Position numbers and translations under genes: made by a program. A stretch of 36,676 bases of DNA from Myxococcales bacterium. Its GTDB lineage: Bacteria > Myxococcota_A > Polyangia > Fen-1088. Each line of letters starts with the position of its first letter. The stretch's first letter is position 1. The DNA is taken from the NCBI GenBank assembly GCA_025350815.1, contig JANXXE010000125.1, forward strand, positions 1 through 36,676. The letters run 5' to 3'. Under the pieces are notes generated by a model. It worked only from the letters and a program-made list of their open reading frames with translations, was not told the origin of the DNA and did no database searches. Of the stretch, positions 8,157 through 34,119 are shown one piece after another.

Positions 8157-9920
8157 TTAGGGCAGGTAGCAGTAACCGTAGGTGCCGTCGCCCGCGTAGC
8201 CTGCGGGGCAGGTGCAGGTGCGCGAACGGCCGTCCGGGTTCGAACAGGTGGCGATGGGGTCGCAGCCGCCGTTCAATTCGGCGCAATTGTCTACCCTGTA
8301 GACCGTCACGTCCGTACGGTTGGCAATCCCGACAAGCCCGGCCGCGTCGTAGCTGCGGTGCTGGGCGATGTCGTCATAGTAGACCTCTGCGTGGGCGTAG
8401 TAGAGGCCGCCGGGGGTGGTGTAGTTGTAGACCGAGGCGCAGGTGCCCGACAGGATGTTGGTTGCGTCGCCCGGAGGCGGCGGGTACAGCTGGCAGTCGC
8501 CGGTCGGATTGCCGTACATGTCGAGCAAGCCGAAGTTGACCCACGTGAGCACGTGGGTACCGCCGCGGGCCTCGATTGCCAGGATGAAGCCCGCGTTCGG
8601 CTGCGTCAGTCCGGGCAGGTCCACCGTGGCGGGAATGCCCGTGATGCTAAGGAGGCGGGGCAGGCCACTGCTGGCATCGGTGATGACGTTGACCGTCGTG
8701 AGGTTCGCGATGGCTGTGAGGTCGCTGTCGAGGTAGTACTGCGTGTTGCCGGCGGCGTCGACGACCGCCGCCCACAAACGGTAGGTTCCTGGTTCCGCGT
8801 ACGCCGCAACCGCTATGCCGCACGAGCCGCTGAGGGACAGGGGTGCGCCCGGTACAGAGGGCACGATGTCGCAGGACAGCGGCAGATTGGTCGGGCTGAC
8901 CAGCGTGAGGGTGATCTTGGCGACGCCCGACTGGTTGTCCTGCGCCGAGGCGCTTAGATTGACGGTCTGTGGCCCGCCGGAGACGTCCACGGTCCCGGGG
9001 ACGCCGCTGATGCTGAGGACGCTCGGAGCGGTCGTGTCGGGCGTCGGGGCGGTGCAGATGATTCCGTTGCCCGTGTAGCCGGCGTTGCAGGCGCAAGACG
9101 AGGAGCCGGGGGTGTTGGTGCAGGTCGCGTTCGTGTTGCAACCCCCGTTGCTCGTGGCGCATTCGTTGATGTCGTTGCAGACCAGGCCGGTGCCGGCGTA
9201 GCCGGGGTTGCAGGCGCATGACGAGGAGCCGGGGGTGTTGGTGCAGGTCGCGTTCGCGGCGCAGCCACCATTGTTGGTGAGGCATTCGTTGACGTCGACG
9301 CAAGCGCCGTTGACGATTGCGTAGCCAGCCGGACAGCCGCATACACGCGAGCCAGGCACGTTGGTACACACCTGCACGCCGCAGCCGCCGTTGTTGGCCG
9401 CGCATTCATTGATGTCGGTGCAGGTAGTTCCGTCACCCGTGTAGCCCTTGCGGCAGGCGCACATGACGGTGCCGGGGCGGTTGATGCAGGTGGCGTTCAC
9501 GCTGCAGCCGCCGTGGTTGGTCTGGCATTCGTTGATGTCGCGGCAGGTGTTGCCGCGCAGGGCGTAGCCCGTCTTGCAAGAGCAGGTGCGCGAACCTACG
9601 GTGTTGGTGCACGTGGCGGCGGCCGTCGCGCCGCAGCCGCCGTTGTTCCGGAGGCATTCGTTGATGTCGGTACAGGTCTTTCCGTCGCCGGTGAAGCCGC
9701 GCTTACAGGTACAGCGGACCTGGGTGGCCGAGGTCGTGGCGCACGTCGCATTGGCGCTGCAGCCGCCGTTGTTCACGCTGCACTTGCCGGCAACGACCAC
9801 CGCCTGCGTAACCAGACTGGGAGCCTCGACGGATTCGGTGGGGTCAGTCGGCGATTCGATGACGCCTTGGCAGCCGAGACCGAAGAGGGCGATGGCAGCG
9901 ATGAGGGTGGGTGCGCGCAT
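8157..9920 (-). CDS. Secreted multi-EGF-domain protein (probable lipoprotein)
   Basis: 587 residues. A signal peptide ends Leu-Phe-Gly-Leu-Gly-Cys17, a weak lipobox. Six EGF modules follow from about residue 47 to 290, each carrying NGGC near its first cysteines; five of them begin Asp-Ile/Val-Asn-Glu-Cys, the calcium-binding EGF signature. A middle region (about 300-540) lacks cysteine clusters and looks like two beta-sandwich repeats, both containing SISG/SITG-x-P-x-TVD phrases. A seventh EGF module (CAELNGGCDPIATC to CPAGYAGDG) closes the protein. The start at 9920 is fixed by GGAGG nine bases upstream (9930-9934). The likely role is calcium-stabilised extracellular adhesion or binding; partners are unknown. 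Such EGF proteins are rare in bacteria overall but recur in Myxococcota. Confidence 0.9.
   Translation of the reverse strand: MRAPTLIAAIALFGLGCQGVIESPTDPTESVEAPSLVTQAVVVAGKCSVNNGGCSANATCATTSATQVRCTCKRGFTGDGKTCTDINECLRNNGGCGATAAATCTNTVGSRTCSCKTGYALRGNTCRDINECQTNHGGCSVNATCINRPGTVMCACRKGYTGDGTTCTDINECAANNGGCGVQVCTNVPGSRVCGCPAGYAIVNGACVDVNECLTNNGGCAANATCTNTPGSSSCACNPGYAGTGLVCNDINECATSNGGCNTNATCTNTPGSSSCACNAGYTGNGIICTAPTPDTTAPSVLSISGVPGTVDVSGGPQTVNLSASAQDNQSGVAKITLTLVSPTNLPLSCDIVPSVPGAPLSLSGSCGIAVAAYAEPGTYRLWAAVVDAAGNTQYYLDSDLTAIANLTTVNVITDASSGLPRLLSITGIPATVDLPGLTQPNAGFILAIEARGGTHVLTWVNFGLLDMYGNPTGDCQLYPPPPGDATNILSGTCASVYNYTTPGGLYYAHAEVYYDDIAQHRSYDAAGLVGIANRTDVTVYRVDNCAELNGGCDPIATCSNPDGRSRTCTCPAGYAGDGTYGYCYLP
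9075..9256 (-). repeat. Near-identical direct repeat within two adjacent EGF modules
   Basis: Bases 9075-9133 and 9198-9256 are 59 bases each and differ at two positions by my reading. The offset is 123 bases, exactly one 41-codon EGF module. The remaining modules are much more diverged at the DNA level, so this pair reflects recent module duplication or gene conversion. Confidence 0.85.
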
Positions 9921-9929
9921 GGTCAGGGT

Positions 9930-9934
9930 CCTCC
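9930..9934 (-). promoter_or_regulatory. Shine-Dalgarno site of the EGF-protein gene
   Basis: On the minus strand GGAGG lies nine bases before the ATG at 9920. It decides this start over an in-frame TTG further upstream (9980). Confidence 0.75.
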
Positions 9935-9953
9935 GTGGGTGTGGGCTGCCTAC

Positions 9954-9980
9954 AATGGGGTATCTGAAAGCGCCTGTCAA
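9954..9980 (-). promoter_or_regulatory. Candidate promoter of the EGF-protein gene
   Basis: On the minus strand a perfect TTGACA (plus coordinates 9975-9980) is followed after about 17 bases by CATTGT, a poor -10 hexamer. It sits at the edge of a conspicuously AT-rich patch (about 9960-10070) that also contains AGTAA/TTACT arms (10000-10004 and 10011-10015). The location about 35-55 bases before the start codon is suitable. The -10 is weak, so this is tentative. Confidence 0.35.
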
Positions 9981-15125: not shown

Positions 15126-17870
15126 TTATTGACAGATGTTGCTGGGCTGGCAGGCGGCGGCGCAGCAGCAGTCCATGTTGTCCCTGCATACCGTGCGGCA
15201 AGCGCCGGTCGTCGCGTCGCAGGTGTAAGGAGCGCACATCGTCTGGCCCTTGTCCTGGCAGACCCCGGCGCCATCGCAGGTCTTCGTGTTCACCATCATA
15301 TTTGCATTGACGCACGATGAGGCGACGCAGGCCGTGCCCGCGAGATACAGACGGCAGGCACCGGCGCCGTCGCAGGTTCCGTCTTGCTTGCAGGTGGTGG
15401 CATCGTCCGCCGGACACATGCCGTTCGGCTCGGCCGCGCCCGCGATCAAGGGATGACACGAGCCCGCGAAACCCGTGACATTGCACGCGCGGCACTTTCC
15501 GCAGGCGCCGGTATCACAGCAGTTTCCATCCACGCAGTGGCCGCCGGTGCACTGGGCGTCGGCCGTACATGTCGCCGCCAGAGGTTTGAGCTGGCAGGTC
15601 GTGCCCACACAACTGGCGGGCGCCACACAGTCAGTGTCGTTCATGCACGTCGTGGGGCAGACCCCCGAGGCGCAGCGGTAGGGGCTGCACGCGATGGTGG
15701 CGCTTGGGGCCGTGCACATGCCACTGCCGTCGCAGGTCGACGGCGGCGTGGCGACGCTGCCCGCACAGGCCCCGGCCGCACACACGGTGCCCGCGGGGTA
15801 CTTGCGGCAGGCGCCGTTGCCGTCGCATTTGCCATCGGTGCCGCAGGTCGTGGCGGCTGCAACGGCGCACATCATGCGGGGATCCGCGCTGCCGGCCGGA
15901 ATCGCGGTGCAGGTGCCGGGCGAGGCGGCCACGTTGCACGCCAGGCACGACCCGCAGGCGCTGGCGGCGCAGCAAACCCCGTCGACGCAGTTGCCGCTGG
16001 CGCACTGTCCACCTGATGTGCACGGGCGTCCGAGCCCCAGGAAATTGCCGCAGGTCCCGCCGCTGCACAGGTTGGGCGGGGCGCAGTCGGCGCTGCTGGT
16101 GCAGGTGGTGCGGCACGCGTTCTTGTTCGCATCGCAGGCATAGGGCGCGCAGGTCTTGGCGGCGCCCATGGGGCAACTGCCCTTGCCGTCGCAGACCGAG
16201 CTTTGCGTGAGTGTGAGTCCGTTGGCCTCGCAGGCGGCGCCCATGCAGCCGGTGCCGGCGATGTACCGTCGGCAGGCGCCCGCGCCGTTGCAGGTTCCGT
16301 CGTTTCTGCACGAGTTGGGCGTTCCCATCGCGCAGCCGCCGCGGGCATCCGCCACCCCGGTCGGAATGGACGCGCAGGTGCCGACCGAGCCCGCGATGTT
16401 GCACGCCGTGCAGGTGGCACAGGTCATGGCCTGGCAGCAGACGCCGTTCGTACAGCTGCCTGTCTTGCATTCCGACGAACGGGTGCAGGTGGCGCCGACG
16501 GCGCGCAATCCGCACGTTCCACCCACGCAGACGTTGGGCGCGGCACAGTTGGCGTCGCTGGTGCACGAGGCCAGGCACGATGAGCCGCTGCAGTGGTAGA
16601 CGCCGCAGGACAGAACCGCCCCGGCGGCACAACGACCGGAAGCATCACAGGTGGAGGGCTGTGTTCGGGTGGTCGTGGTGGCGCAGGTCGCGGCCGCGCA
16701 CACGGTTCCGATGGGGTACTTGCGACAGACGCCAGCGCCGTTGCACGTGCCGTCGGTGCCGCAGGTCGACGATCCCTGATTGGTGCACACGGCGCGTGGA
16801 TCAGGTCGGCCAGTTGGAACCGGCGTGCACGTTCCGGGCAGAACACCGCCTGTGCATGTGCGGCAGGGTCCCGCGCACGCGCCATCGCAGCAGACGCCGT
16901 CGACGCAATTGCCGCTGTCGCAGCTTGCGGCGGCAGTGCAGCTTTGGCCCAGGCCCTTCTTGCCGCAGCTCTTATTGGCCACATCGCAGGTGCGCTGGGG
17001 CGCGCAGTCGTCGTTGGCTGCGCAGTCGGCCTTGCACGCGCCGTTCTTGCACGCATAAGGCGCGCACGCGAGCTGTGCGCCCGGCTGGCAGGCCCCGAGG
17101 CCGTCGCACTTGCCGGCGGATAAGAGGATCGTGGCCCCCATGCAGCTGGGCATCTGGCAGACGGCGCCTGCCGGGTAGCGGGCGCAGGCGCCATTACCGT
17201 CGCAGGCCCCCGTGGTTCCGCAGGTCGCCGCGCCGGTATCCATGCAGACTTTGTTCGGATCCTTGATGCCGGCCGCTATCGGTTTGCACTTGCCCGGTGA
17301 ACCGACCTGGCTGCAGGACAGACACGCACCATCGCAGCGGGTGTCGCAACAGACACCGTTGGCGCAGAATCCGCTGGCGCATTCGCCGCCGCCTGCGCAC
17401 TGGGCGCCGTCGAATTTCTTGCCGCAGCTGCCGTTGACGCATTCGCGGCCGGGTATGCAGTCTGCCGAGGCGGCGCAGGTGTTTGCGCAACCGGGGGTTC
17501 CGGCCACGGTCTGGCAGCGGAAGGGCGCACAGATGATGGCCGGGCCGGCCGAACATTGACCCGCGCCGTCGCATGCGCCGGGCGCGGTGATTTCGCCGTC
17601 GCCGCACACGCCGGGCGAACAGCGCGTGCCGGCCGGGTGTTTCCGGCAGCCGCCAGCGCCGTCGCAGGTTCCGTCGAAACTGCAGGTCTCGGCCCCGTAC
17701 CCCGTGCAGATGCGATCAGGCGGCAGCGGGGGCAGCCCGGCCGGAACAAAGCTGCAGGTTCCCTGGAGGCCCGGAACATTGCACGATTGGCACAGCCCCA
17801 CGCACGGTGTGCTGCAGCAGACGCCTTGCGAGCACGAGTGGCTGGCACATTCGGTCCCGAGCGTGCATGC
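15126..17870 (-). repeat. Six tandem ~460-bp coding repeats
   Basis: Protein repeats map to DNA units beginning near 17870, 17402, 16943, 16490, 16025 and 15572 (minus strand). Unit lengths are 151-156 codons. They are diverged in DNA but keep cysteine positions, so duplication is old and selection has acted on the disulfide pattern. Confidence 0.8.
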
Positions 17871-18323
17871 GCGGCCGTTTGGTGCCTCCGCCAAGGTCAC
17901 ACCGGCCCCTGCTGTCAGGTCCACCACGACGGGGACGAGGGTGCCCTTGACCACGTTGGCCCTTGCCTGGCCGCCGGCGACGGGTACGCCGGCCGAAAAG
18001 CCGCGAATCTGGCAGCGCACCATGGTCTTGTCCGCGCTGTCCGGGAAATAGATGATGATGTTGCCGCCGGTGGTCAGGGGGCCGTGGGCGATCTGGGGCT
18101 GGCGTTGCGTGCCGACCAGATCCTTGCCCAGCGGTTCTTCCTGCACGCTGACTTCCAGCTGGTCGACGGTGACATTCAGCCAGTTGCTAACGACGTTGAG
18201 ACCGGTCACGGCGGGGGTGACGTTGCGGCAGCTCGGACCCGCCAGCACCAGGCCGAGCGCGGCCCACGTCAGCGCGTGCTTCGTGAGGATGCGGGGTCGG
18301 TTAGGGGGTGGTGGCGGCTGCAT
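15126..18323 (-). CDS. Giant secreted cysteine-rich protein with six tandem ~153-residue repeats
   Basis: 1065 residues. The N-terminal hydrophobic segment (LTWAALGLVLAG, then Cys32) is a signal peptide, possibly of a lipoprotein. Residues 35-145 form a beta-rich domain with few cysteines. From about residue 152 to the end there are six repeats starting near 152, 308, 461, 612, 767 and 918, each with more than 20 cysteines. Each repeat has the same order: C-x-x-G-x-C with (D/N)GVCC, then GxCxxC, TCG-x-DGTCDG-x-GACRKYP, CDG-x-GxC, CAPYxC, and finally C-x4-(D/N)-C. It is probably a disulfide-stiffened extracellular or outer-membrane-attached rod. Proteins of this style are common in Myxococcota and mostly uncharacterised. 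It is divergent from the small Cys-rich lipoprotein at 18474. Confidence 0.88.
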   Translation of the reverse strand: MQPPPPPNRPRILTKHALTWAALGLVLAGPSCRNVTPAVTGLNVVSNWLNVTVDQLEVSVQEEPLGKDLVGTQRQPQIAHGPLTTGGNIIIYFPDSADKTMVRCQIRGFSAGVPVAGGQARANVVKGTLVPVVVDLTAGAGVTLAEAPNGRACTLGTECASHSCSQGVCCSTPCVGLCQSCNVPGLQGTCSFVPAGLPPLPPDRICTGYGAETCSFDGTCDGAGGCRKHPAGTRCSPGVCGDGEITAPGACDGAGQCSAGPAIICAPFRCQTVAGTPGCANTCAASADCIPGRECVNGSCGKKFDGAQCAGGGECASGFCANGVCCDTRCDGACLSCSQVGSPGKCKPIAAGIKDPNKVCMDTGAATCGTTGACDGNGACARYPAGAVCQMPSCMGATILLSAGKCDGLGACQPGAQLACAPYACKNGACKADCAANDDCAPQRTCDVANKSCGKKGLGQSCTAAASCDSGNCVDGVCCDGACAGPCRTCTGGVLPGTCTPVPTGRPDPRAVCTNQGSSTCGTDGTCNGAGVCRKYPIGTVCAAATCATTTTRTQPSTCDASGRCAAGAVLSCGVYHCSGSSCLASCTSDANCAAPNVCVGGTCGLRAVGATCTRSSECKTGSCTNGVCCQAMTCATCTACNIAGSVGTCASIPTGVADARGGCAMGTPNSCRNDGTCNGAGACRRYIAGTGCMGAACEANGLTLTQSSVCDGKGSCPMGAAKTCAPYACDANKNACRTTCTSSADCAPPNLCSGGTCGNFLGLGRPCTSGGQCASGNCVDGVCCAASACGSCLACNVAASPGTCTAIPAGSADPRMMCAVAAATTCGTDGKCDGNGACRKYPAGTVCAAGACAGSVATPPSTCDGSGMCTAPSATIACSPYRCASGVCPTTCMNDTDCVAPASCVGTTCQLKPLAATCTADAQCTGGHCVDGNCCDTGACGKCRACNVTGFAGSCHPLIAGAAEPNGMCPADDATTCKQDGTCDGAGACRLYLAGTACVASSCVNANMMVNTKTCDGAGVCQDKGQTMCAPYTCDATTGACRTVCRDNMDCCCAAACQPSNICQ

Positions 18324-27135: not shown

Positions 27136-27597
27136 ATGAAGATCATCGGACGACAAGCCGACGGCGGGTTCACCCTGCTGGAGGTATTGATTGCGATGCT
27201 GATCGCGATGATTGGCCTCATGGGGACAGTGGCGGTCCAGATGACGGTGCTGAGCGGCTCGCAAAATGCCAATGACGCGGGTGTGGCGATGCGGCTGGCC
27301 ACGCAGACGATGGAAGAATTCAACGCGCGCATCGTGCGGCAACCGACGGAAGATCTGATGGCGGCTGTTGCGACGCCCGCACCGGGTCCGTGCGTGTGGA
27401 CGCCCGACGTCTATTTGGACGTCAATGGCGCACGAAACGCTGCGCTGACGCCGGCATTTCGCTGGATCCGACGGACCTGCGTTTTGAATCGCGGCGTCGG
27501 ACTGCCCTACAACGTGTCGGTCGAGATTAGCTATGCCCTCGACACGGGGCAGGCCAAGATCGTTCGGCTCGACATGGAACGGCGGAAAACGTGGTGA
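27136..27597 (+). CDS. pilV: Type IV pilus minor pilin PilV
   Basis: Has a class-III prepilin signal: short basic leader, then Gly-Gly before Phe-Thr-Leu-Leu-Glu, with Glu at +5 of the mature protein, and a hydrophobic helix (VLIAMLIAMIGLMGTVAVQM). The match to PilV is the phrase GFTLLEVLIAMLIAMIGLMG plus length (153 residues) and position ahead of pilW. PilV is one of the minor pilins forming the priming tip complex with PilY1; it is cleaved and N-methylated by PilD. Its C-terminal domain has two cysteines (CVWTPDVY, RRTCVLN) that may form a disulfide. The stop overlaps the start of pilW (GTGA), so translation is coupled. Confidence 0.88.
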   Translation: MKIIGRQADGGFTLLEVLIAMLIAMIGLMGTVAVQMTVLSGSQNANDAGVAMRLATQTMEEFNARIVRQPTEDLMAAVATPAPGPCVWTPDVYLDVNGARNAALTPAFRWIRRTCVLNRGVGLPYNVSVEISYALDTGQAKIVRLDMERRKTW

Positions 27598-28892
27598 GAT
27601 CCCGCCGCAGACCGGACGCCGGCCTTAGCCTGGTCGAACTGATGATCACCCTGGCGGTGGCGTCGCTGGTGTCGGGTTCGACGTTTGTGTTCTTTGCGGG
27701 GCAGCAGAAGGTGTACGAGACACAGGGCCGGCTGTTGAACGTCCAGCAGAACCTGTGGAGCGCGATGGAGATCATGGGTCGCAACGTGCGCGCCGCCGGC
27801 ATCGGCATGGCCAACTGCGTCCGCCAGGACAGCGATCGCGGAGGCCCGGACAATGGCGATCCGCCGCCCACGCCGTCGATCGGATTTCCCAATCCCGCAG
27901 GTGGCGTCCGGGCGTTTCGTGGCGGCGCCGTCATTCGCATTCCACCCATGTGGATCATCAACGGCGCGGCCGGCGCGCCAGACGAAATCACCGTGGCCTT
28001 CGGAACCAATACCTTCGGAAATACCGCTGACACCTTCCTCACGCAGGACGTGCGATCGACCAACGTGGTCAGCGACGCCGTCATGACCATCGGCACCGTC
28101 TACCAGGCGAACGACTTCATTCTGCTGGCGGACGTGGGTACCCCGGCCAGGAATCTGAACAATGATCGGGGATGCACCCTGTTCCAGGTGACCGGTGTGC
28201 TGGGAAATCAACTGGTCCACGCGCCCACCTCCGCGTGGAATCCGCCAGGGGACATCGCGGGCCTGGCGCCGACCGCGGTGCCGGCGGCGGGACCCGCCTA
28301 TGTCTATCCGACCGGCGACAAGGGGGGCGTGCGCAATTTTGGCACCCTCAATTGGGTGCGGTTCTTCATCGACGCCACCAATGCGCCGGCGACGCCGCCC
28401 CGCCTGATGATGGATCGTCTCGACACCAACGCCGGTCCGCAGTTGCTGGCTGACGGCATCGAAGATATGCAGATCGCTTACGCGTGCGACATTCCCGTGC
28501 CGCTGGCACCCGATTGCCCGGCCGGGCCCCCGTGCGTGTCGCCCGAGACGCCCACCAATCCGGCCGACGGCACATTGACCGAGGGCGGGCCGCTGCCGGC
28601 CCCACCCGCAGCCGGCGCGCAACCCACCGTCGTGGCAACGCGTCTGTATACGGCGCCTGGAACGGGGGACGAATGGACCTACAACACGCCGGGCGACATC
28701 CCCCGGCCCGACTGCAACCGGCCAACCGCTGTGCGCGTCACCCTGATTGGTCGATCGATGACGGCGGATACCGCAATACCGAATGGCGCCGGAAACTACA
28801 AACCTGGCATTGAAGACGGACTGGCTGGCCCAGTGGATACCTTCCGCCACCGCGTGATCACGTCCACCATCAATCCGCGCAATCGTGAGTAA
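27591..28892 (+). CDS. pilW: Type IV pilus minor pilin PilW
   Basis: 433 residues. The prepilin site is Asp-Ala-Gly before Leu-Ser-Leu-Val-Glu, with Glu at +5, followed by a hydrophobic helix (LMITLAVASLVSGSTFVFFA). The sequence GLSLVELMITLAV and the later WSAMEIMGRNVRAAGIGMANC are typical of PilW. It is one of the larger minor pilins and contributes to pilus priming with PilV, PilX and PilY1. A Pro-rich, Cys-containing insertion (about residues 300-350, PDCPAGPPCVSPETP) is unusual. Two adjacent GTG codons (27591 and 27594) precede Arg-Ser; either may start translation, the second giving a GTGA overlap with pilV. Confidence 0.88.
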   Translation: MVRSRRRPDAGLSLVELMITLAVASLVSGSTFVFFAGQQKVYETQGRLLNVQQNLWSAMEIMGRNVRAAGIGMANCVRQDSDRGGPDNGDPPPTPSIGFPNPAGGVRAFRGGAVIRIPPMWIINGAAGAPDEITVAFGTNTFGNTADTFLTQDVRSTNVVSDAVMTIGTVYQANDFILLADVGTPARNLNNDRGCTLFQVTGVLGNQLVHAPTSAWNPPGDIAGLAPTAVPAAGPAYVYPTGDKGGVRNFGTLNWVRFFIDATNAPATPPRLMMDRLDTNAGPQLLADGIEDMQIAYACDIPVPLAPDCPAGPPCVSPETPTNPADGTLTEGGPLPAPPAAGAQPTVVATRLYTAPGTGDEWTYNTPGDIPRPDCNRPTAVRVTLIGRSMTADTAIPNGAGNYKPGIEDGLAGPVDTFRHRVITSTINPRNRE

Positions 28893-28904: not shown

Positions 28905-29702
28905 ATGAACCCGACGTGTCTGCAATCTTCTAAGCAATCTGTTTTGCAAACTTCAATGCGGCGCCACGGCGAATCGGGCTCGATTCTGGTGGTTGTATTG
29001 ATGGTCATGCTGGGCCTGCTGGCCTTGGGCATCACGGCGATGTGGTTGACCAGCGGCAATCTGCAGGTCGGCGCCAACATGAGCCAGCGGACGCAGGCGC
29101 TGTACGTCGCCGAGGCAGGTATCGAAAAAGCGCGGGAGATCTTGAATGCGCTGCCGCCCCCGACAGTTCCGTCGGCCTTGTTTGCGGGCGTGGGTCCCAA
29201 CTGTGGCGGCGGCAATGGGGACGATGTTCCCTCGGCCGGAAATCCCAACGGTGTCGGCGCCATCATGATTGATACGGCCACTGCGCCCGTTCCGGCGCCC
29301 GCCGCGCCCTATCCCGCGCTGTGCGGATTCACCTATCCCCCGACCGCTGCTGCAAGCAGCACCTGGCGCGGAACCGGGGCCCCGACAGTTGTTGCGCCGG
29401 CGGTTCGTCCCCTGATGCCGGACGTCATGGGTCGCTACACCGTCTGGATTCGCAACGACACGGCCGAAACGCGGCAGGGGATGTGGAACGTCGATACGAA
29501 CGGCTCGGTGGTTGTGACCTCGCGTGGCGTGGCGCCCGACAACCGAACTGTCGTGGTGCTGGAGGTGACTCTCGGCCCGAACATGGGCGCGCCCGCCAGC
29601 CCCGGGATGCTGCTGGCGGCGCCAATCGAGCTGTGTGCCAACGGTCGGAACGCCTGCGACCAGAACAACAACGTAAATTACGGCGCCGTTATCGGGAATT
29701 GA
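28905..29702 (+). CDS. pilX: Type IV pilus minor pilin PilX
   Basis: 265 residues. The cleavage site is Gly before Ser-Ile-Leu-Val-Val-Val, and Glu5 is absent, as is normal for PilX/GspK-like minor pilins at the pilus tip. The PilX N-terminal pattern continues with MVMLGLLALGITAMWLTSGN and QALYVAEAGIEKAREIL. A Cys pair (CGGGNGDD, CGFTYPP) and a further pair near the C-terminus (LCANGRNACDQ) suggest disulfides. It starts 12 bases after the pilW stop; the leader before the Gly is long (about 25 residues), so an internal start at a Met near residue 18 is possible. The gene ends 139 bases before pilY1. Confidence 0.85.
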   Translation: MNPTCLQSSKQSVLQTSMRRHGESGSILVVVLMVMLGLLALGITAMWLTSGNLQVGANMSQRTQALYVAEAGIEKAREILNALPPPTVPSALFAGVGPNCGGGNGDDVPSAGNPNGVGAIMIDTATAPVPAPAAPYPALCGFTYPPTAAASSTWRGTGAPTVVAPAVRPLMPDVMGRYTVWIRNDTAETRQGMWNVDTNGSVVVTSRGVAPDNRTVVVLEVTLGPNMGAPASPGMLLAAPIELCANGRNACDQNNNVNYGAVIGN

Positions 29703-29841: not shown

Positions 29842-32800
29842 ATGACAATCGTGAACAACAGGGTAGGGGCGCGTCAGCAATGGACAGCCGTCGGGACGGC
29901 CACCGTGTTCTGGGCCTCGCTGCTGCTGTCATCGGCCCCGACGCCAGTCGAGGCGCGTTACGACCCGCTGTACATCGTCAAGCAGCAGATCAAGAAGCCA
30001 AACTTGCTGATCGCGCTGGACACCTCAGGATCGCTGGTCAGCGTGCCAGGCCCTGCCTTTGCCGTCGATCAAAAGAATCCCAACAACAGCACAGAAGCCG
30101 GCATGGATTGCGACAACGGTTCCAATTGTCGCCAAAAGAGAGTTTGCAAGATTGCTGGCGTTATTACGAGCACTGCTTGCGGCCAGGACATGGACTGCTG
30201 GCCGAAGAACTGTAGGCTCACGCAAGGATCGTGCAATGTCACGCCTGACTGTCCGAATTGGAACGTAGGGTTTTGCGATCGGGACGTGGCGCTCAGCTTT
30301 GTGCACGGTATGACCAATACCAAATGCACGGCTGACGCAGATTGCCTGCAGGCGACGTCGGGTCAATGTCATATGCCAGGGGATCCTGACGCATTTCTCA
30401 CGGGTCCGACCTGCGGCACGCACACCGACTGCGTAAACTTCGCGGGCTGTGGATCGCACGCGTCTACAGGGGATTGTGGTAACGAAACCGTAATTGATGA
30501 ATTTGGAAATACGATTCCGTCACCTTGCATCTATTGTAAGTACGGCTGTGCCTGGCCCGATCCGAATTTCTGCGCAACAAACACTTGTGTTGGAAAAGAC
30601 AACGGAGACAGATGCGTGCCTGACCCCGTCTCGCAGACAGGCATGTGCAAGGCGACCGAGTTGCCGTGTCGGCGCGGTGGTGGTTTCAATGACTGCGCGG
30701 CCGGGGATGTCTGTATCGCCCCTTCGTCGCGATCGATGATCGCCAAGCGCGTCATCACGAACATCATCAATGAGGCCCACAACGTCGTGAATATGGGTCT
30801 GATGACCTACTACCAATCCGGGTACTTTGCGTACTTTCAGGCCGGTGGAACCAGCGCGCAAGAGACCTTTTTTCTCGATCCCTTCACTTTACAGAGTAAT
30901 GGTTGTACCACACAGCCGAGTAACGGTTGGGGCAAGCAGCAGAACCAATGGTCCAAGGGATACGGCCAGCCCAACCCTGTTTGTATGGGGATGACATTGG
31001 CGACGTCCCAACCCAATAGTCGCTATTACGTCGACTCCCCGTCCGGCGTTCGGGCGCAATACGAGCTGGACTGGTGTGGGTCCCAATGTGCGACTCCGGG
31101 TGGGAAAGGAACTTATGCTGGCAGCTACTACACCGCTTCTGTGCCCCAAGGTGGCGGCGCGGGTGGGGATATGGGGTTGCCGCTCAGCCCGCGCCCGACG
31201 GTTTACCAGGGCAAAAGCATCTCGGCCGTCAATAAGCCATGGCGCTACATGGACATCCCGGCGGATTTGTTCACCGATGGACAGCCAGGCCTGCAGTATG
31301 GTCCTACGCCCGGTCGAACGAAGCTTCAGTGGTTGAAAAGCACGATGGACTTTGGCGATTGTTACGACACTTTTACCTGCGATCCCAAGTGCGGCGGCAA
31401 ATTGCTTCAGCCTGAGATCGACCCGATGGCGACCCCGGCGGTGGCCCAGCAGAACGCCCTGAAGTTGATCCAATACATGCGCCCAGCCAGCGACGGTGGC
31501 CTGGTGTCGTTTGGCTACACGCCAACCGGTTGCATGTTGGAAAACAGCGGTGCGCCCACGCGAGACACAAGTGCGTACCACTACGTGCAAGATCTCATCC
31601 TCAACAAGGACACCATTTCCTATTCGGCGCCACTTGGTCGGGTCGATCCGAAGCTGTATTGCCGGGGGACAAACGTCTTGCTGATAACCGACGGTGAATC
31701 GAATGGGCCAGACGATGCCGACAAGGTGGCGTGTCCGTTGGGCGGATTTGACTACCGATCGCGCTGCGCGGATGTCGCGTGTGCGGCCGCAAATCCCATC
31801 GCAGCGGGTTGTAAATGCCGGGCAGTGACGGCGGCATACGATCTGCGCATGAACCTGGGCGCCAGCACCTATGTCATTGGCTACGGCGGCGACGTCACGC
31901 AGGCTTCCGCGACGCTGTGCGGTCAGCCAGTCGCCTCGACGACAAGGCAGACCCTGGAGAACATCGCGAAAGCCGGCGGCACGGACGCATCCGCGGTGGC
32001 GCGCAAGATGTACCCTGGTGCGCCCCTGCCCTATGCGTTCGTCGCGGCCAATGAATCCGCCTTGCAGCAAAGCATCTTGACGGCGATCCAGATGATGGCG
32101 CCCGGAAGCTACGTCACCGCGCCGGCGACATCGTCGTCGGGGACGCAGTCGGGAAATACCCTGGTTGCAGGTCAATTGGCCCTTGAAGGCCGTGTCGACT
32201 ACCCCGTGTGGCAGGGACACCTGAATGCCTTCGACATGACCGCCACGCCAGTCCCGGCCTTGAAGTGGGATGCGACGGCCAAGCTGAAGACGCTGCTGGA
32301 CAAGGGCGAATGGTGGAAGCGCCGCGTGTACATCGGTACCGCTACGGGCAGCGTGATTCAAGTGCAGGGGGGCGGACGAACGCCAACCGCTGCTGACCCC
32401 AGCCCCACCGGGGTGTTGAATGCCGCTGCCATTCGCGCGCAGACGGGTCTTGGCACATCCGACATCGAGACCGATCAGATTCTGCGTTTTGCCATGGGCG
32501 CGCTGGACTACTCCGTCAACCCGACGTACCCGCCGCCGATGAACCCAGCCGCGATTGGCTCCATCGTGAACAGTACCCCCATTGATGTTGGCCCCCCCGG
32601 GGAAAGCTGGATGGCGGGTGGCAAGGCGTTTGCGCAGAACTACAAGAGCCGGCCAAATTTGATTTATGTGGGCGCGGATGACGGCATGCTGCATGCGTTC
32701 TTTCGGGAAGACACGACGGTTGGCGGGGCGCCGGCCACGGTCACTTATCCAGCGGGTAGCGAGGCGTTCGCTTTCATCCCGCCAGACATGCTGGACCAGG

Positions 32801-34119
32801 TGACGACGCTGTACTTGCATCGTGGACAGCCGGCTGACCCGGATTTGCACGTTTTTGGCCTGGCGAATTCGCCCAAGGTCAAAAACATGTGCATTGCCAC
32901 GGATTGCAACAACGCCACGGCCAGTGACTGGGCGACTGTGTTGTTGATGCCCGAGGGCCCGGGCGGCAACGATCTTTTTGCCCTCGACATCACCAATCCT
33001 GTTGGCGCCAGCGGCTTTTCGAACCCGCCGATCAAATTGTTGTGGCATTCGGCAACGGCGGCCGCCAGTGCGACCTATGACACGGTGCTGGGCCAAACGT
33101 TTTCGGTACCGGCGTTCTATATGAACGAGGACGCCACCGCGAAGGCCGAACAAAGGATCGTCTATGCGTCGGGCTACCAGGGGGACACGGGGCCCGAGGG
33201 GATCGAGTTCGTTGTATCGGGGGCGGTCAGCGGCAAACTGGTCGACCACCAGGCGGCCAGCAAGACCGGCCCTGTGTGTGCGCAGGACTATGCCTTGATG
33301 ACGGACACCGCCGCGGCCAAGAACTTCCTCACGTGGAAGCAGCCGCTGCTGTCCGCATATTCGGGCGACACCTGGGGCAAGCTGTGGCGGTACGCGCCCG
33401 GGCCCTTGGGTGCCGCGGGGCAGGTGAAGCTGGTCGAGGATTTCGGTTGCCAGCAACCGCTGTATTTTTCGCCGACGACCGTTCAGCTGGATCGCGACGA
33501 TCCCATGAACGATCCGACCCATTCGGGTTTGCCCAACCAGATCTTCCTGGTGCAGGTGACCAATTCGGCCCTCGATCCCGACACGCAGGCCTATCCAGCC
33601 TCGCAGATGGTGTTCATCAAGGAATACCGCGACAAAAGCGGCGTTTTCCAGCGGGATCCGGCGTTCGGTACCGGCGGCAAGAAGGTGCTGACGGTCGGCA
33701 CGACGGATATTTGTTACGACACCGACGGAAAGGGATCGTGCCTGAAGATGCCGGCCACCGCGCGGCCCATGGGAACGCCGCTGGGCATTCTGCGCAAGGA
33801 CGGAGCCGGGTTCGATGTGTTCTCGACCTGGTACCTGCCACCGCCGCCAAACGCCTGCGGCAAGGGCACGTCGTACATCGCCATTCACGAGCTATTGGTA
33901 AACTCGGTCGCGCAGCGGGAATCGCACGTGCCGCCGCAGCCTGAACCCGTGGTCAGCCCCGTTGTGGCCGGTGGGCAGGTCTATGTGGTCACGGCCAATG
34001 GTGCCGTGAAGATCGACGCAAATCTCACCGGTACTTTCAAATCGGGGGGCTCGACCGAGGGCTTCACCGGCATCAACGCGGACAAGCGCTTCCGGACGCT
34101 GAACTGGACCGAGAAATAG
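29842..34119 (+). CDS. pilY1: Type IV pilus tip adhesin/assembly factor PilY1 with Cys-rich insertion
   Basis: 1425 residues. A signal peptide ends near residue 38. A von Willebrand A-type domain starts with NLLIALDTSGSL, whose Asp60, Ser62 and Ser64 form a MIDAS. It is interrupted by a Cys-rich insertion (26 Cys from 90 to 291), then resumes with MIAKRVITNIINEAHNVVNMGLMTYY; GTNVLLITDGESNG is a later vWA strand. The C-terminal half is the PilY1 beta-propeller (YVGADDGMLHAFF, AFIPPDMLDQ) with a Ca-loop-like DTDGKG near residue 1293. PilY1 sits at the pilus tip with the minor pilins, promotes extension and binds surfaces. The ATG at 29842 is chosen because AGGAAGGG precedes it. The codons of the insert are clearly less GC-rich than the rest. 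Confidence 0.93.
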   Translation: MTIVNNRVGARQQWTAVGTATVFWASLLLSSAPTPVEARYDPLYIVKQQIKKPNLLIALDTSGSLVSVPGPAFAVDQKNPNNSTEAGMDCDNGSNCRQKRVCKIAGVITSTACGQDMDCWPKNCRLTQGSCNVTPDCPNWNVGFCDRDVALSFVHGMTNTKCTADADCLQATSGQCHMPGDPDAFLTGPTCGTHTDCVNFAGCGSHASTGDCGNETVIDEFGNTIPSPCIYCKYGCAWPDPNFCATNTCVGKDNGDRCVPDPVSQTGMCKATELPCRRGGGFNDCAAGDVCIAPSSRSMIAKRVITNIINEAHNVVNMGLMTYYQSGYFAYFQAGGTSAQETFFLDPFTLQSNGCTTQPSNGWGKQQNQWSKGYGQPNPVCMGMTLATSQPNSRYYVDSPSGVRAQYELDWCGSQCATPGGKGTYAGSYYTASVPQGGGAGGDMGLPLSPRPTVYQGKSISAVNKPWRYMDIPADLFTDGQPGLQYGPTPGRTKLQWLKSTMDFGDCYDTFTCDPKCGGKLLQPEIDPMATPAVAQQNALKLIQYMRPASDGGLVSFGYTPTGCMLENSGAPTRDTSAYHYVQDLILNKDTISYSAPLGRVDPKLYCRGTNVLLITDGESNGPDDADKVACPLGGFDYRSRCADVACAAANPIAAGCKCRAVTAAYDLRMNLGASTYVIGYGGDVTQASATLCGQPVASTTRQTLENIAKAGGTDASAVARKMYPGAPLPYAFVAANESALQQSILTAIQMMAPGSYVTAPATSSSGTQSGNTLVAGQLALEGRVDYPVWQGHLNAFDMTATPVPALKWDATAKLKTLLDKGEWWKRRVYIGTATGSVIQVQGGGRTPTAADPSPTGVLNAAAIRAQTGLGTSDIETDQILRFAMGALDYSVNPTYPPPMNPAAIGSIVNSTPIDVGPPGESWMAGGKAFAQNYKSRPNLIYVGADDGMLHAFFREDTTVGGAPATVTYPAGSEAFAFIPPDMLDQVTTLYLHRGQPADPDLHVFGLANSPKVKNMCIATDCNNATASDWATVLLMPEGPGGNDLFALDITNPVGASGFSNPPIKLLWHSATAAASATYDTVLGQTFSVPAFYMNEDATAKAEQRIVYASGYQGDTGPEGIEFVVSGAVSGKLVDHQAASKTGPVCAQDYALMTDTAAAKNFLTWKQPLLSAYSGDTWGKLWRYAPGPLGAAGQVKLVEDFGCQQPLYFSPTTVQLDRDDPMNDPTHSGLPNQIFLVQVTNSALDPDTQAYPASQMVFIKEYRDKSGVFQRDPAFGTGGKKVLTVGTTDICYDTDGKGSCLKMPATARPMGTPLGILRKDGAGFDVFSTWYLPPPPNACGKGTSYIAIHELLVNSVAQRESHVPPQPEPVVSPVVAGGQVYVVTANGAVKIDANLTGTFKSGGSTEGFTGINADKRFRTLNWTEK
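30109..30714 (+). other. Cysteine-rich insertion coding region within pilY1 (compositionally distinct)
   Basis: Encodes residues 90-291, with 26 cysteines, including four C-x4-D-C modules (Cys113-119, 131-137, 162-168, 191-197). It lies between the MIDAS strand and the first helix of the vWA domain. Third codon positions carry many more A and T than in flanking genes, and the low-GC character continues somewhat downstream to about 31400. This points to a different origin or relaxed codon selection. Confidence 0.7.

Follow-up and report, generated by a model that had tools for sequence, protein, structure and literature searches.

In the assembly GCA_025350815.1 of a Myxococcales bacterium, contig JANXXE010000125.1 contains a pilY1 gene in which about 200 Cys-rich residues interrupt the vWA domain. 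The locus raises two questions: where this insert came from and what it could do at the tip of a pilus. The window analyzed here is the whole stretch of 36,676 nucleotides (positions 1 to 36,676, forward strand), and coordinates given without a locus name refer to it.

The pilY1 gene and its vWA domain

The gene (29842..34119, + strand) encodes a protein of 1425 aa with 48 Cys, which scores over the cut-off of the Pfam model T4P_PilY1 (PF05567; 37.3 bits versus 28.1). The match covers residues 905-1073, within the beta-propeller (32554..33060, +), and the PDB entry 3hx6, the propeller of Pseudomonas aeruginosa PilY1, matches residues 904-1069 (E = 1e-5). The string D-x-[DN]-x-[DN], the Ca-binding motif of P. 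aeruginosa, is absent from the protein according to a regular-expression check. A probable Sec signal peptide, read from the sequence, occupies residues 1-38 (29842..29955, +) and ends in PTPVEA. The gene is the last one of a minor-pilin operon, with the pilins directly upstream and on the same strand. The first of them is PilV/FimU-like and has a prepilin N-methylation motif (27136..27597; N_methyl PF07963, 9e-7), with homologues upstream of pilY1 in the related loci L036, L037 and L048. The second is PilW-like (27591..28892; PilW PF16074, 4e-5, just under the cut-off, supported by N_methyl and synteny), and the third is PilX-like (28905..29702; PilX_N PF14341, 4e-8, and synteny).

The Pfam search of this protein gave no VWA match. 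The MIDAS set is complete (D60, S62, S64, T560 and D617) and is kept in the relatives: D60-x-S62-x-S64, on strand beta1 (30001..30033, +), is conserved in every row of alignment A1 covering the region, while T560 in the motif TPTG (31519..31521, +) and D617 in the motif LITDG (31690..31692, +) are invariant in 12 of 12 rows. Helix alpha1 corresponds to residues 297-312 (30730..30777, +), with A301, K302 and R303 invariant in the same alignment. In the secondary structure of a low-confidence AlphaFold model (pLDDT 34), the insert is preceded by a strand (residues 54-60) and followed by a helix (residues 297-312). With a propeller, an N-terminal vWA with its MIDAS and a minor-pilin operon all found, the protein is, judged by its sequence, a PilY1/PilC tip adhesin of type IVa pili.

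Some minor observations concern the neighboring genes and their relatives. In L036 (1156-6321, genome G008; also L074), the PilX-like protein and PilY1 share one frame of 1722 aa with a stop-free junction, which could be a fusion or an assembly error. The window's genome has a second PilW-like gene (G000:C141:10438-11592; 62% identity over residues 2-308), located on a different contig from that of its second PilY1. In the PilY1 of L034 (6516-10709), residues 637-736 of the vWA part match weakly the model of the gliding-motility adhesin CglB (E = 5e-6, far below the cut-off).

Content and distribution of the Cys-rich insert

The insert lies in the beta1-alpha1 loop (30109..30714, +), where residues 90-291 hold 26 of the 48 Cys of PilY1 in 202 aa, with a Cys as both first and last residue. 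It has exactly four C-x4-D-C motifs (CGQDMDC at residue 113, CNVTPDC at 131, CTADADC at 162 and CGTHTDC at 191), each followed by a third Cys, forming four 3-Cys modules (30178..30474, +). These counts reproduce exactly the preliminary description of this DNA, which had reported 26 Cys and four such motifs in about 200 residues between the MIDAS strand and the vWA helix. Shuffled loops have on average 0.5 C-x3/4-D-C motifs and reach four or more at P = 0.002. No tandem or direct DNA repeats were found in 29842-31200, which rules out a recent tandem duplication at the DNA level. No Pfam match to known Cys-rich domains (EGF, DUF7107 and others) was found in the window insert, a Pfam search of 11 inserts gave a single weak match (E = 0.13) in one of them, and the PDB profile search with the insert gave no match. 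Since no curated Pfam or PDB model matches it, we rejected the insert as a known Cys-rich domain.

The spacing between the Cys is mostly 4-8 residues, with one C-x2-C and no C-x2-C-H. This spacing argues against a metallothionein-like role in which the Cys bind metal or take part in redox chemistry rather than form disulfides, as does the expected extracellular location of PilY1. Although the many Cys and the origin of the related genomes, largely from fen metagenomes, are in line with such a role, we regard it as extremely improbable.

The aligned family members share the insert ends ExGxDCxxGxxCR and MC...C...GDxC...SR. In the window, the constant 5' end covers residues 85-98 (30094..30135, +), with E, G, D, C, G, C and R invariant in alignment A3, and matches the insert profile from position 1. 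The constant 3' end, MC..GDxC..SR, covers residues 268-298 (30643..30735, +), with M268, C269, C276, C285, G288, D289, C291, S296 and R297 invariant in alignment A1.

Related PilY1 genes were found in 14 sampled genomes of the same family, from five further genera. The loop from the MIDAS to alpha1 has 319-330 aa and 42-44 Cys in twelve same-family genomes from five genera, 231 aa and 26 Cys in the window PilY1, and 95 aa and 10 Cys in L033, the second PilY1 encoded in the window's genome. Full-length PilY1 of the relatives contain 62-69 Cys. Those of genus g7 have 43 Cys in the loop, an odd number, so that at least one Cys must be unpaired within it. Three genomes of one same-family genus had no PilY1 match, but the family control was silent there too and absence is not proven.

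A first contig scan with the single window PilY1 protein as query gave no match, and relatives of the G021 PilY1 (L057), sought toward other Cys-rich clades, were found in two genomes only. The insert profile matches PilY1 of this family and nothing else in the window's genome or in 38 relatives, and it has no match in genomes outside the family in a sample of 237 genomes of the phylum. Outside the family, 40 PilY1-type proteins have a median of 4 Cys in the stretch from the MIDAS to beta2, and 12 at most; two lengths in this set (L158 and L047) were misread by the pattern. The earlier proposal of a lineage-specific insert is therefore borne out at the level of one taxonomic family, its profile being found only in PilY1 there. 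The insert is a family trait, with homologous longer inserts in the relatives and no match outside the family in the phylum sample. Silent donor cassettes elsewhere in the genome were also considered and rejected, as the profile matches only the two PilY1 genes.

Divergence and origin of the insert

Between its constant ends, the loop varies in length and content, with 10 to 44 Cys, differing numbers of 3-Cys modules, or laminin-G domains. The paralogue L033 retains only positions 1-41 and 276-315 of the insert profile. In L035, four Laminin_G_3 domains separate the retained positions 1-140 from the retained positions 229-315, and Ser/Thr-rich repeats take the site of the loop middle in partial PilY1 genes of G009 and G012. 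The L035 gene (5470-12777, genome G002) encodes a PilY1 of 2436 aa, with the four Laminin_G_3 domains inside the Cys-rich loop and the Cys-rich ends retained. A second PilY1 group exists in the family (L050, L054, L055; fragments L051-L053 and L056), in which beta1 is followed by long Ser/Thr-rich repeats; its members with an N-terminus have a degenerate MIDAS (VESPES, VESAES or LETAES versus LDTSGS).

Against a profile built without it, the window insert scores 42.4 bits, with maxima of 29.4 bits for 200 full shuffles and 40.8 bits for 200 shuffles with fixed Cys. As it exceeds all the shuffles, we consider the insert homologous to those of the relatives, with a strongly diverged middle. Cys spacing is similar across genera despite identities of 33-40%. 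The Cys register of the window copy in the alignment is 22, compared to a mean of 21.6 in block-permuted controls, and we rejected it as proof of homology since it fails this permutation control. As the register is uninformative, the case for homology is built on the constant ends and on the non-Cys residues, which no control matched (0 of 120 and 0 of 400).

In the tree of the C-terminal part, the family is one clade (100/100), with the window protein on its own unresolved branch. L033 groups with L034 of G002 (99/97), whose loop has 320 aa and 42 Cys. This grouping with a long-loop copy indicates that the long form is probably ancestral and that both copies of the window's genome were reduced, in a tree that is incompletely resolved. 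The gene order pilV-W-X of the window is common to L036, L037 and L048. An ACT-domain gene that neighbors pilY1 in a further group of genera is located near the window pilY1 as well. In every segment, the window PilY1 is about equally distant from all relatives, with evenly low identity and no sign of a mosaic.

The DNA of the insert had been described as less GC-rich than its neighborhood, and it is: the GC content of 30109-30714 is 0.556, versus 0.612 in the rest of the gene and 0.644-0.645 in the flanks. The loop GC3 (0.606) ranks lowest among 223 segments of 231 codons taken from the same genome (mean 0.798, sd 0.045) when the reference is a gene set filtered for high GC3, while 15 of 243 segments have lower values when ORFs are taken unfiltered, spurious frames included. 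After codon correction for amino acid composition, with 18 stretches of the window's genome as the codon usage reference, the GC3 deficit has z = -5.6 in the loop and -3.2 in the following 210 codons, which belong to the conserved vWA, and is near zero after them. The low GC3 is thus real, but it reaches beyond the insert. By composition and codon-corrected analysis, the stretch of lowered GC and GC3 (29950..31150, no strand assigned) is broader than the insert. It is centered on the insert and particular to the window copy, with ordinary GC3 in the inserts of the relatives.

It had also been proposed that the insert was acquired from elsewhere, in which case a recent horizontal transfer from a lower-GC source would account for the low GC3 of the window insert. 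The continuation of the dip for about 210 codons into the conserved vWA speaks against this, as do the ordinary GC3 of the relatives' inserts and the presence of homologous inserts in the sampled relatives having this PilY1. The shared synteny, the even distances to all relatives in every segment and the lack of matches elsewhere in the phylum sample point in the same direction. Neither a discordant phylogeny nor a composition confined to the insert was found, and we rejected horizontal acquisition as already largely refuted and very improbable.

Among four genus-mates, amino acid identity is 47-77% inside the loop versus 71-100% outside, with sharp borders. In close pairs, omega is 0.19-0.43 for the loop versus 0.08-0.14 for the C-terminal part. 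All 43 loop Cys are kept in six of the seven close pairs, and 41 of 45 in the seventh. In these comparisons, the loop is hypervariable among close relatives, yet it is under overall purifying selection with fixed Cys. One pair deserves a separate mention: L038 and L043 are sisters in the C-terminal tree, and their loops have diverged much further than the remainder of the genes, synonymous sites included (dS 0.68 versus 0.32-0.35). This excess suggests that one of the two loops was replaced by recombination.

Possible functions at the pilus tip

In the vWA topology, a long beta1-alpha1 loop lies beside the MIDAS metal. The insert would thus occupy the position, over the MIDAS, where an adhesive module is expected. 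On balance, we lean toward reading it as a display segment, held by a disulfide scaffold within the beta1-alpha1 loop of the vWA, that PilY1 would present at the distal end of the type IVa pilus. Its Cys would pair as disulfides in the oxidizing exterior, and the insert, next to the MIDAS metal, may be the first part to touch ligands of surfaces, polysaccharides or prey. Variation in the insert could tune specificity between species, and laminin-G (lectin-like) domains may be an alternative cargo at the same loop site. Taken together, the fixed Cys, the fast-evolving residues between them, the purifying selection and the lectin-like alternatives in the same place suggest that a disulfide scaffold carries a contact surface here. 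We counted against it that the AlphaFold models of both the vWA domain and the insert have a mean pLDDT of 33-34, that no known domain matches, that the loop Cys of genus g7 are odd in number, that the Cys register is no better than in the permuted controls, and that the window middle resembles those of the relatives weakly (42.4 bits versus 40.8 for the best shuffle with fixed Cys).

The insert could instead be a structural spacer, in which Cys-rich repeats only build a stable stalk or plug; its sequence would be of little importance, and its size would change by gain or loss of modules. The variable length, the differing module copy numbers and the fast evolution between Cys agree with this, and omega below 1 would also be compatible with a merely tolerant spacer. 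However, the loop hardly changes in length (319-330 aa) or in Cys number (42-44) over five genera, it is under purifying selection and it is located over the MIDAS, which makes a spacer unlikely.

According to PMC8806160, PilY1 is located at the tip of the pilus, and its vWA domain lies at the apex. The preliminary description had suggested that the insert may be a mechanosensing module. As a disulfide mechanosensor, the Cys cluster would respond to force within the vWA and signal contact with a surface to the cell. In the same source, the vWA of P. aeruginosa PA14 has 7 of the 11 Cys of PilY1, and C152S impairs surface signaling and biofilm formation. By analogy with this single-cysteine precedent (PMC8806160), mechanosensing is possible, and the Cys are the most conserved part of the loop. 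On the other hand, a range from 10 to 44 Cys, with partial replacement by laminin-G in a paralogue, would be odd for a tuned force element, and the hypervariable residues between the Cys suggest ligand contact, so that this role seems quite unlikely.

Returning to the display segment, the beta1-alpha1 loop of PilY1 in this family may be a dedicated site of diversification, where constant Cys-bearing ends frame a middle made of 3-Cys tandem modules, laminin-G domains or Ser/Thr-rich repeats, which can be exchanged and determines the binding of the pilus tip. It would combine a conserved scaffold with a hypervariable surface, as in disulfide-rich binding proteins; we offer this broader idea tentatively and consider it doubtful. 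PilY1 touches surfaces, and little is known about how species tune its binding. A loop on the MIDAS side with fixed Cys, fast residues and interchangeable contents would be a swappable target for studying both pilus-tip specificity and the role of disulfides in surface sensing.

Parts of this arrangement have precedents. In ComC, the PilY1 orthologue of Acinetobacter baumannii, deleting a finger embedded in the vWA equals deleting the whole gene in its effect on twitching, adhesion and DNA uptake (PMC10374093). ComC variant 1 resembles the window PilY1 as a tip adhesin with a lineage-specific insertion in a MIDAS-bearing vWA, the insertions of its relatives being different. However, the ComC finger is built as an antiparallel beta protrusion and has a Tyr-rich motif (PMC10374093), whereas the window insert has about 200 aa, 26 Cys, 3-Cys modules and constant ends, and no Tyr-rich motif of that type was seen in its sequence. 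RrgA and PilB also have a vWA with two inserted arms flanking the MIDAS (PMC8179133), but these pilus proteins are unrelated and their arms are not described as Cys-rich repeats, so they are a parallel only. P. aeruginosa PilY1 shares the vWA with MIDAS and has functionally important Cys, but its vWA has 7 Cys, compared to 26 in the window insert, and no large Cys-rich insert is described in the passages of PMC8806160 consulted.

In Myxococcota, the PilY1 clades 1.3 and 1.5-1.7 have high Cys contents, with clade medians of 30-41, and share the vWA and the beta-propeller with the window PilY1 (PMC13190605). Compared by Cys content only, the window protein has 48 Cys, over half of them in one loop. 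The words "insert" and "loop" are absent from the main text of that paper. Within what these sources cover, lineage-specific vWA insertions in PilY1-type adhesins and the high Cys content of Myxococcota PilY1 are already known. What appears to be new, on the basis of sequence comparison, is a vWA insert that is Cys-rich, modular, constant-ended and restricted to one family in the sampled genomes.

Two other genes of the window, both on the - strand, are worth recording: one encodes a secreted-looking protein of 607 aa with seven EGF-type domains (8157-9980), and the other a Cys-rich repeat protein of 1065 aa with a weak DUF7107 match (15126-18323).
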